From: Thermanaerosceptrum fracticalcis
GTDB taxonomy: Bacteria > Bacillota > Peptococcia > DRI-13
DNA length: 64,000 nt
Direction of reading: 5' to 3'
Assembly: GCF_000746025.2 (NCBI RefSeq)
Contig: NZ_CP045798.1
Span: 1,474,501-1,538,500, forward strand
Shown: positions 5,456 through 11,680 of the stretch, piece after piece
Numbering within the stretch: position 1 is the stretch's first letter
How the letters are laid out: every line of letters begins with the position of its first letter
The notes under the pieces: generated by a model
Seen by the model: the letters and a program-made list of their open reading frames with translations, nothing else
What the model was told of the DNA's origin: nothing
The model's database searches: none
Position numbers and translations under genes: made by a program

Positions 5456-5710
5456 CTATAACTCATATTTAATACCATGCACACCTAAGTATTCTTTTGG
5501 GCGCATCTCACCGCCACAAACCTCACAACTAAACCTTGGTGGAACTGAAATATCTCCGTCATCCATCATATCGCAGTAATCCACCACTTCCTTCGGAATG
5601 TCTTCTTCTATGTTACACTGCAAACAAACAAATTTGATGGTTGCCTTGCCGCCTACTTTAGGCGGCTTTTTCTTTGCGTGTTTCTTTCTTTTTCTGCTTA
5701 CTGGGCTCAT
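5456..5710 (-). CDS. 84-aa zinc-ribbon-like accessory protein of IS copy 1
   Basis: Small basic protein with a Lys/Arg-rich start (SRKRKKHAKKKPPK) and two Cys pairs, CLQC and CEVC, about 35 residues apart, suggesting a zinc ribbon. It begins inside the 3' end of the transposase gene in another frame, overlapping by 53 bases, which suggests coupled translation. The frame and full protein sequence are identical in all four copies, supporting real coding. The role is unknown; binding of DNA ends or modulation of the transposase is a guess. I do not recognise a named family. Confidence 0.75.
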   Translation of the reverse strand: MSPVSRKRKKHAKKKPPKVGGKATIKFVCLQCNIEEDIPKEVVDYCDMMDDGDISVPPRFSCEVCGGEMRPKEYLGVHGIKYEL

Positions 5711-6917
5711 CTATTCCTGCCAACTCCTTTAGTCTTTTTTTAGCAAAGTCATCTACGGCATCAACAACTTTCAATATCCCTGATTTTAGACACACTTTCC
5801 CCTTGTATTCCATTATCTCTTTACATCTCATACATTCTAACGGGTCTTTTCCTGTGAATTCTTCTATTTTATTTCTCCAGCCTATCCGTTGCTTTCCTCT
5901 TTGGCCGTTTTTCCTTCTTTTCTGCCTTCCCAGGTATGCTTCCATTAATTTGTCAGCCAATCTTTTACTCCTTCTGGAGTAAATTCCATAATACCGGATT
6001 GTTTTAAATTGCTCATCCGGTATATGCCTTATTATCCGTGATATGAATTCTTCTACGGTGATGGTTTCTTGTTTTTCTTTTTGCTCTGTTTTATCAAAGT
6101 ATTTAAAGGTTACATTTTCCCCGTCATAGTCTACAATTCTGCTTAACGCCATGGCAGGTCTTCTCATGTACCGCCCTATATATCCTACTTGGGCTTCTAC
6201 TGACCCTTGTCCTTTTTTATTGGGCGGACCATAGATTACAAATCCTTCAGGGTTATCATCCCATATCTTTTGAAACAACTTCTTATATCGTTTAACTTCT
6301 TGTTCCGGCAGTTTTTTCTTCAACATCTCCATTACTGCCGCCTGCCACCTTTTCCTCAGCATTACATATGGGATAAAGTCTTTAACAACCCATTTCCCCG
6401 CTCCGTCAAAACCACCTTCAGTTACTAGGATATGTACATGGGGATTGAAGTTCATTCTTGCTCCAAAGGTATGTATTCCTACCATGGCGCCGGATTTGAC
6501 TTTTCCTCTTTTCTTCAGCCATTCTAATAGTATTTTTACTGCCAGGTCCATTAGATCTTTCAAGAGTTCTCTATGACGGGTAAATATTTCCCACAAACGT
6601 TCGTCCACTGTAAACATGATGTGGCGATGAGGAACCGGATACATTCTTTTACTGGTTTCTCGACTCCATTCTTGGGTGTATCCGGTTGCGCACGATGTAC
6701 AAAAACGTCCCTTACACGTGTGAGGAACTATTTTCATTTCTCCACATACCGGACATGCGAACAGAGTAAATCCTGCTTCTTTTTGTCCACATCGATTAAA
6801 TTTATTGATTTCCTTTATCACAACAGGACGTATTCTGTCTTCGTATTTATTAACAAACTTTTCCCAATGCTTGTTCTCATCAAAAAATATCTCTCTTAAG
6901 ATATTATCCTGGCCCAT
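5658..6917 (-). CDS. IS91-family Y2 transposase, copy 1
   Basis: HUH-type rolling-circle transposase of 419 residues. N-terminal zinc-binding region with CPVC near 55-58 and CKGRFCTSC near 68-76. HUH motif H160-V-H162 in NFNPHVHILV. Two catalytic tyrosines in YxxxY spacing (Y246 and Y250 in VGYIGRYMRRP), the hallmark of IS91/IS801 enzymes. The C-terminal third is basic and carries one more Cys pair (CMRC, about residue 370). The start has GAAAGGTGAG just upstream. The protein is intact and identical in copies 3 and 4; copy 2 differs at residue 25. Confidence 0.92.
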   Translation of the reverse strand: MGQDNILREIFFDENKHWEKFVNKYEDRIRPVVIKEINKFNRCGQKEAGFTLFACPVCGEMKIVPHTCKGRFCTSCATGYTQEWSRETSKRMYPVPHRHIMFTVDERLWEIFTRHRELLKDLMDLAVKILLEWLKKRGKVKSGAMVGIHTFGARMNFNPHVHILVTEGGFDGAGKWVVKDFIPYVMLRKRWQAAVMEMLKKKLPEQEVKRYKKLFQKIWDDNPEGFVIYGPPNKKGQGSVEAQVGYIGRYMRRPAMALSRIVDYDGENVTFKYFDKTEQKEKQETITVEEFISRIIRHIPDEQFKTIRYYGIYSRRSKRLADKLMEAYLGRQKRRKNGQRGKQRIGWRNKIEEFTGKDPLECMRCKEIMEYKGKVCLKSGILKVVDAVDDFAKKRLKELAGIDEPSKQKKKETRKEKAA

Positions 6918-7125: not shown

Positions 7126-7380
7126 CTATAACTCATATTTAATACCATGCACACCTAAGTATTCTTTTGGGCGCATCTCACCGCCACAAACCTCACAACT
7201 AAACCTTGGTGGAACTGAAATATCTCCGTCATCCATCATATCGCAGTAATCCACCACTTCCTTCGGAATGTCTTCTTCTATGTTACACTGCAAACAAACA
7301 AATTTGATGGTTGCCTTGCCGCCTACTTTAGGCGGCTTTTTCTTTGCGTGTTTCTTTCTTTTTCTGCTTACTGGGCTCAT
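7126..7380 (-). CDS. 84-aa zinc-ribbon-like accessory protein of IS copy 2
   Basis: Identical protein to that encoded at 5456-5710, again overlapping the transposase 3' end by 53 bases in another frame. See copy 1 for the motifs. Function unknown. Confidence 0.75.
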   Translation of the reverse strand: MSPVSRKRKKHAKKKPPKVGGKATIKFVCLQCNIEEDIPKEVVDYCDMMDDGDISVPPRFSCEVCGGEMRPKEYLGVHGIKYEL

Positions 7381-8587
7381 CTATTCCTGCCAACTCCTTT
7401 AGTCTTTTTTTAGCAAAGTCATCTACGGCATCAACAACTTTCAATATCCCTGATTTTAGACACACTTTCCCCTTGTATTCCATTATCTCTTTACATCTCA
7501 TACATTCTAACGGGTCTTTTCCTGTGAATTCTTCTATTTTATTTCTCCAGCCTATCCGTTGCTTTCCTCTTTGGCCGTTTTTCCTTCTTTTCTGCCTTCC
7601 CAGGTATGCTTCCATTAATTTGTCAGCCAATCTTTTACTCCTTCTGGAGTAAATTCCATAATACCGGATTGTTTTAAATTGCTCATCCGGTATATGCCTT
7701 ATTATCCGTGATATGAATTCTTCTACGGTGATGGTTTCTTGTTTTTCTTTTTGCTCTGTTTTATCAAAGTATTTAAAGGTTACATTTTCCCCGTCATAGT
7801 CTACAATTCTGCTTAACGCCATGGCAGGTCTTCTCATGTACCGCCCTATATATCCTACTTGGGCTTCTACTGACCCTTGTCCTTTTTTATTGGGCGGACC
7901 ATAGATTACAAATCCTTCAGGGTTATCATCCCATATCTTTTGAAACAACTTCTTATATCGTTTAACTTCTTGTTCCGGCAGTTTTTTCTTCAACATCTCC
8001 ATTACTGCCGCCTGCCACCTTTTCCTCAGCATTACATATGGGATAAAGTCTTTAACAACCCATTTCCCCGCTCCGTCAAAACCACCTTCAGTTACTAGGA
8101 TATGTACATGGGGATTGAAGTTCATTCTTGCTCCAAAGGTATGTATTCCTACCATGGCGCCGGATTTGACTTTTCCTCTTTTCTTCAGCCATTCTAATAG
8201 TATTTTTACTGCCAGGTCCATTAGATCTTTCAAGAGTTCTCTATGACGGGTAAATATTTCCCACAAACGTTCGTCCACTGTAAACATGATGTGGCGATGA
8301 GGAACCGGATACATTCTTTTACTGGTTTCTCGACTCCATTCTTGGGTGTATCCGGTTGCGCACGATGTACAAAAACGTCCCTTACACGTGTGAGGAACTA
8401 TTTTCATTTCTCCACATACCGGACATGCGAACAGAGTAAATCCTGCTTCTTTTTGTCCACATCGATTAAATTTATTGATTTCCTTTATCACAACAGGACG
8501 TATTCTGTCTTCGTGTTTATTAACAAACTTTTCCCAATGCTTGTTCTCATCAAAAAATATCTCTCTTAAGATATTATCCTGGCCCAT
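7328..8587 (-). CDS. IS91-family Y2 transposase, copy 2
   Basis: Intact 419-residue HUH Y2 transposase. It has the same zinc, HVH and YxxxY motifs as copy 1 and one visible amino-acid change, Tyr25 to His. The change lies outside the catalytic motifs, so the protein is probably active. It is the most diverged of the four copies. Confidence 0.92.
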   Translation of the reverse strand: MGQDNILREIFFDENKHWEKFVNKHEDRIRPVVIKEINKFNRCGQKEAGFTLFACPVCGEMKIVPHTCKGRFCTSCATGYTQEWSRETSKRMYPVPHRHIMFTVDERLWEIFTRHRELLKDLMDLAVKILLEWLKKRGKVKSGAMVGIHTFGARMNFNPHVHILVTEGGFDGAGKWVVKDFIPYVMLRKRWQAAVMEMLKKKLPEQEVKRYKKLFQKIWDDNPEGFVIYGPPNKKGQGSVEAQVGYIGRYMRRPAMALSRIVDYDGENVTFKYFDKTEQKEKQETITVEEFISRIIRHIPDEQFKTIRYYGIYSRRSKRLADKLMEAYLGRQKRRKNGQRGKQRIGWRNKIEEFTGKDPLECMRCKEIMEYKGKVCLKSGILKVVDAVDDFAKKRLKELAGIDEPSKQKKKETRKEKAA

Positions 8588-11198: not shown

Positions 11199-11304
11199 CT
11201 TAAGACAAGATATTTTGGTTTAAAACAGAACAAAATAATTTCTTTCACTCCTTTTAAAGCTTTTGTTACAATACTAATAAACGGATAATAAGGGAGGGAT
11301 CAGT

Positions 11305-11595
11305 GTGTTTGATCTTAACATAACCGATGAAGCCTTAGCTTTTATTAAGAACAAAGGTGGTATGATTACCATCCAGTGCATGCGTTTAGGAAGCGGCTGA
11401 TGTGGCGGCATGCTAAAGCCCACCGTGTCTGTGGGCGAGCCAGCACAAAAGCAGGGATTTACTCTGGTGGAGAAAGACGGCATCTCCATTTACCTTTCAC
11501 AAGCCGTAAAACATAAACCTGGCGTGAAAGCAACCATCTCTCTCCAGGGAATGTGGATTTTTAAGGAACTGGAAGTACAGGGCCTTTCCTGCTGA
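11305..11595 (+). CDS. HesB/IscA-like small selenoprotein with in-frame TGA (Sec32)
   Basis: Frame of 96 residues starting at GTG 11305 (GGGAGG seven bases upstream), with TGA at codon 32 (11398-11400) read as selenocysteine: QCMRLGSG-Sec-CGGMLKPT. The downstream part stays open to a TGA at 11593 and is protein-like, including VEKDGISIYLSQAV, which resembles HesB/IscA proteins. A hairpin 17 bases after the TGA looks like a bacterial SECIS. The Sec-Cys pair and length of about 95 residues match what I recall of small Firmicute proteins annotated as CC/Se motif family. Role unknown; metal- or thiol-redox chemistry is likely. Automated calls would miss or split it. Confidence 0.82.
11418..11436 (+). 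promoter_or_regulatory. candidate bacterial SECIS element
   Basis: Stem GCCCAC/GTGGGC (11418-11423 with 11431-11436) closing the seven-base loop CGTGTCT, which contains the GU expected for SelB recognition. It starts 17 bases after the in-frame TGA, within the spacing seen for bacterial SECIS elements. Confidence 0.7.
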
Positions 11596-11645: not shown

Positions 11646-11680
11646 ACCCAGTACTAAAAATAGTACTGGGTCTTTGTTTT
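11646..11680 (+). terminator. terminator between selenoprotein gene and ubiX
   Basis: Perfect ten-base stem ACCCAGTACT/AGTACTGGGT around AAAAAT, followed by CTTTGTTTT. It lies between convergent genes and touches the ubiX stop codon. Confidence 0.8.

Follow-up and report, generated by a model that had tools for sequence, protein, structure and literature searches.

The window, a 64-kb stretch of Thermanaerosceptrum fracticalcis DNA, carries on its + strand a frame of 96 codons (11305–11592) that starts with GTG, ends at a TGA stop (11593–11595) and is interrupted in frame only once, by a TGA at codon 32 (Sec32). Cys33 follows Sec32 directly in the motif GSGUCGG, and one further cysteine, Cys96, lies at the very C-terminus. 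The original prediction, made from the sequence of the window, had described the single TGA at residue 32, the frame open on both of its sides, the 96-residue length and the ribosome binding site as they are listed here (Table 1). A default ORF listing of the locus yields only a 61-residue downstream fragment (11410–11595). Purine-rich Shine-Dalgarno-type sequences also precede the genes of most relatives.

Table 1. Features of the selenoprotein locus in window coordinates.
Feature	Coordinates	Strand	Basis
Promoter-like site TTCACT-17-TACAAT, TG before the second hexamer (inferred)	11244–11272	+	Consensus scan, 9/12 matches
Ribosome binding site GGGAGG, ~6 bases 5' of GTG	about 11292–11298	+	Direct reading
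NF041239 (CC/Se motif) selenoprotein gene, 96 aa, GTG start, TGA stop	11305–11595	+	NCBIfam match, relatives
TGA codon read as Sec32	11398–11400	+	TGA/Cys at the same site in relatives; hhalign alignment
Bacterial SECIS hairpin GCCCAC-CGUGUCU-GUGGGC	11418–11436	+	bSECIS limits, covariation
Bidirectional intrinsic terminator, common to a convergent UbiX-like flavoprotein gene	11646–11671		Terminator scan, both strands

The promoter-like site comes from a weak scan (3 sites in the region vs 1.2 expected); together with the bidirectional terminator it suggests a single-gene transcript. The flavoprotein gene lies on one side of the selenoprotein gene and an 82-codon ORF on the other, and molybdenum-cofactor genes are found near it. 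At gathering thresholds the sole Rfam match is a molybdenum/tungsten cofactor riboswitch (RF01055, 19935–20052, − strand). The window also contains two near-identical two-gene units (5456–6917 and 7126–8587, − strand) encoding proteins of 84 aa and 419 aa, the longer of which resembles an IS transposase.

The 96-residue product matches the NCBIfam model NF041239, "CC/Se motif family (seleno)protein", with 81.6 bits against a cut-off of 40. Of 398 genomes sampled from the phylum, 90 contain relatives, and most loci have exactly one in-frame TGA. Of the 57 distinct relatives whose genes were read completely, 50 have TGA at the Sec32 site and 7 have Cys. When the window gene is compared with that of a same-genus genome, all six differences 3' of the TGA affect the third base of a codon and five are synonymous; in other close pairs, too, third-position changes are in excess both before and after the TGA. 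Identical criteria applied across the 64 kb yielded no further TGA-bridged frame that has a SECIS-like hairpin. We considered the terminal TGA as a second selenocysteine codon and rejected it: by eye there is no suitable hairpin at the right distance, an in-frame TGA and TAG occur three and four codons further on, and in the nearest relatives a TGA or TAA stop follows Cys-Gln.

The hairpin begins 17 bases after the TGA, where a GC-rich hairpin with GU in its loop had been predicted, and its 7-nt loop, with G at position 2, begins 23 nt from the UGA (−9.1 kcal/mol). These values are within the bSECIS limits of a 2026 review (PMC13188914), which include a G in the first two loop positions. Judged from the single sequence alone the hairpin is not exceptional, and folding was uninformative as SECIS proof: the 61-nt stretch has a z-score of −0.16, and 17 of 200 synonymous recodings are as good. 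It is established by its conservation and covariation across relatives. In 29 sequences 94.8% of stem cells are paired and four of the six pairs changed on both sides; both-side changes number 21, whereas shuffles average 7.2 and none of 500 reaches as many. Covariation is 0.355 vs 0.208 when shuffled (0/500) and at most 0.135 when slid. Stem variants include GCCCAC/GUGGGC (the window gene), CCUGC/GCAGG, GCCUAC/GUAGGC and GCCUGU/ACAGGU, among others. Most relatives keep the 23-nt spacing and the loop CGUGUNN nearly unchanged; CGUGCNN, CGUGANN and UGUGUNN also occur. Since the same stretch encodes the conserved protein motif P-x-V-x-x-G, this conservation is partly at the protein level. Cys forms such as L057, L071 (2288–2578), L028 and L073 (3239–3523) have no CGUGU hairpin at 23 nt, and a few Cys forms carry unrelated hairpins of similar energy.

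The 3.8-Mb genome contains selA, selB, selD and tRNA-Sec (selC); the tRNA has the anticodon TCA and adjoins selB, and selD itself has an in-frame TGA. This genome has another NF041239 copy (L057:2983–3321, corresponding to G000:C1:2135289–2135528, − strand), a Cys-Cys form without a SECIS hairpin, with a response regulator gene and a NicO nickel-transport gene as neighbors. The NF041239 match, the conserved TGA, the covarying SECIS hairpin, the presence of selA, selB, selC and selD and the lack of a further such candidate in the 64 kb make a strong case for UGA at codon 32 as selenocysteine, and we are highly confident that the protein is a selenoprotein and a member of NF041239. The selenoprotein proposed in the original prediction is thus borne out by the family search, the SECIS limits, the four sel genes, the Cys/Sec exchange at this site in homologs and the conservation after the TGA.

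Several comparisons point to an IscA-type fold. Alignment of 35 NF041239 proteins with 13 HesB/IscA proteins by hhalign gave a probability of 97.2% over the full length and placed Sec32 on the HesB selenocysteine; the HesB set on its own matches IscA and SufA structures. The AlphaFold2 model of the window protein has a pLDDT of 92.3, and all Foldseek matches exceeding a probability of 0.5 are proteins of the IscA/SufA type. VIA-align scored Z 8.3 to IscA and 8.1 to SufA, a Z of ~8 being the edge of the chance-match level. Weak, below-cut-off matches to PF01521 were found in 14 of the 35 relatives (best 8.8e-5) and none for the window protein itself. The family profile found no meaningful match among PDB sequences, so the fold assignment depends on comparing profiles with profiles and structures with structures. 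What makes it convincing is that all methods agree, and NF041239 is in all probability a distant relative with a predicted IscA/HesB fold. IscA holds a cluster or iron through one cysteine at the equivalent site and two near the C-terminus, and the cluster ligands of the E. coli protein are Cys35, Cys99 and Cys101. By way of the alignment with the HesB-like selenocysteine, Sec32 would occupy the position of the conserved Cys35.

A sister clade carries TGA-TGA at the Sec site, with both codons conserved, at eleven loci (L058, L059 and L060–L068) from ten genomes and five families. Its motif is HGUUNAFYAPSG (L061:1995–2285, + strand, and L060–L067 are examples). NCBIfam has no separate UU family for these proteins, and their best match is NF041239, near its cut-off. 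In ten of the eleven loci the loop of a single hairpin lies 24 bases downstream of the first UGA and 21 downstream of the second, and in L059 the distances are 27 and 24. The hairpin covaries, and in ten sequences all of its cells are paired. The structural model (pLDDT 88.3) again has IscA proteins as its best PDB matches, weak ones. Aldehyde:ferredoxin oxidoreductase genes adjoin eight of these loci, and a gene with an [FeFe]-hydrogenase-type large-subunit domain lies near seven; most of the loci are flanked by genes of both kinds, one on each side. None of the 119 families in the table of PMC13188914 has a UU motif, and a literature search of incomplete coverage found no description of one; an earlier description is possible. 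We somewhat favor the view that NF041239 is an unrecognized offshoot of the IscA fold, with selenocysteine replacing a cluster-ligand cysteine and paired with a nearby Cys or Sec, and that the sister clade would read both consecutive UGA codons as selenocysteine from a single SECIS hairpin; the resulting Sec-Sec dipeptide would be encoded next to genes for tungsten-type aldehyde oxidoreductases and [FeFe]-hydrogenase-like proteins.

A second Cys or Sec lies within four residues of the selenocysteine in 47 of the 50 Sec forms: at +1 in 24 (eleven of them Sec-Sec), −3 in 14, +3 in 7, and −1 or +4 in 2. UC, CU, UU, UxxC and CxxU forms all occur among the sampled proteins. Such a nearby partner is characteristic of a selenol/thiol pair that serves redox chemistry or holds a soft metal. 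Twelve relatives adjoin a thioredoxin gene (eleven loci of one family and L039, where a CcdA/DsbD-type gene accompanies it), and a thioredoxin-thioredoxin reductase fusion lies upstream in L040 and L041; the neighborhood of the window gene has no thioredoxin gene. We favor a redox or soft-metal protein because the second Cys/Sec is kept beside the selenocysteine and many relatives adjoin thioredoxin genes. A thioredoxin-linked redox role seems a little better than an even bet. We propose that tRNA-Sec and SelB decode the UGA at codon 32 using the hairpin 17 bases downstream, and that the chain would fold like IscA/SufA with Sec32 in place of Cys35 and Cys33 beside it. The local Sec/Cys pair could then stand in for the two cysteines that bind the cluster near the C-terminus of IscA, giving a small redox protein that forms a selenenylsulfide, probably reduced by thioredoxin, or one that handles soft metals or sulfur.

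The Sec-Cys pair might instead be a ligand rather than a redox couple, in a protein that binds or delivers a soft metal, sulfur or selenium, for example to molybdenum/tungsten enzymes. The window gene lies beside molybdenum-cofactor genes with the Moco riboswitch near, in one clade of relatives a gene with a molybdopterin-binding domain is close by, the Sec-Sec sister clade adjoins genes for tungsten-type aldehyde:ferredoxin oxidoreductases, and the Cys paralog of the same genome adjoins the NicO gene. This evidence is gene proximity, however, and neighborhoods vary between clades, whereas the thioredoxin link recurs more often; we regard the ligand role as a tentative, less probable alternative to the thioredoxin-linked redox role. 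NF041239 genes often form groups of several divergent copies, three each in L070 and L073 and two each in L072 and L074, and in some genomes such clustered copies are found beside methylmalonyl-CoA mutase, thiolase or CoA-transferase genes. In two copies in L069 (G383:C13, − strand) the matched frame contains a TAA or TAG close to its N-terminal end and not at the Sec site; these copies are probably degenerate or have later starts.

It is very unlikely that the protein is an ordinary HesB-like selenoprotein of the Sec-IscA family (TIGR01911), carrying Fe-S clusters or iron. The fold and the position of the selenocysteine are in common, and Cys96 stands at the C-terminus, as does a cysteine in the nearest relatives in L072 (YRCQ, YSCQ). 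However, the NCBIfam scan gave no match between the window protein and TIGR01911 up to E 1, and we rejected TIGR01911 as its family label. The motif is UCGG rather than UxGP, the C-terminal CC or CxC found in most HesB-like proteins is missing, and most relatives, apart from the closest ones, have no C-terminal cysteine at all. Furthermore, the HesB-like gene of this genome is located elsewhere (G000:C1:1988685–1988942, L086). That gene has one in-frame TGA, ends in Cys-Cys and scores 53.2 bits against TIGR01911, below the cut-off of 66.35. The description "HesB/IscA-like" in the original prediction therefore stands for the fold, to which the profile-profile, Foldseek and VIA-align results and the weak PF01521 matches point, and fails as a family label, since the protein belongs to NF041239 and does not match TIGR01911, and the genome has a separate HesB-like gene. 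A pseudogene or sequencing error, in which translation would end at the TGA and the frame beyond it is open by chance, has a negligible probability: a 64-codon stretch may stay open by chance, but a TGA kept in dozens of independent genomes, the codon-position bias 3' of it and the covarying SECIS stem rule this origin out.

The analysis confirms a selenoprotein that annotation easily misses and provides a widespread, uncharacterized family with a predicted fold and a testable active site. The novelty is modest in that NF041239 is already catalogued. With UC, CU, CxxU, UxxC, CC and UU on one scaffold, the chemistry of the Sec/Cys pair becomes testable, and the tandem-UGA clade poses the question of whether a single SECIS hairpin suffices for two UGA codons in a row.

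The window protein shares with the IscA/SufA A-type carriers (PF01521) the predicted fold and the alignment of Sec32 with their first conserved cysteine, whereas sequence identity is 7–17% and, of the three ligand cysteines, Sec32 takes the place of the first while the C-terminal CxC is absent and there is one Cys96. With the HesB-like selenoproteins (TIGR01911) it shares the inferred fold, the aligned Sec position, a similar length and a SECIS-type hairpin within the coding sequence; it differs in the UxGP motif, the C-terminal Cys cluster and the match to the model, all of which it lacks, and the hairpin loop is UGGAU in HesB-like genes and CGUGU in the window gene. NF041239 is listed in Table 1 of PMC13188914 as a high-confidence predicted selenoprotein of Moorella thermoacetica with the motif CxxU. 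Unlike that entry, the window protein has the pair Sec-Cys (GSGUCGG), lacks a Cys at −3 and adds a C-terminal cysteine; like it, it matches the profile over its full length (positions 3–91 of 91) and has one selenocysteine at the same site, the hairpin at the same position and a length of ~95 aa.
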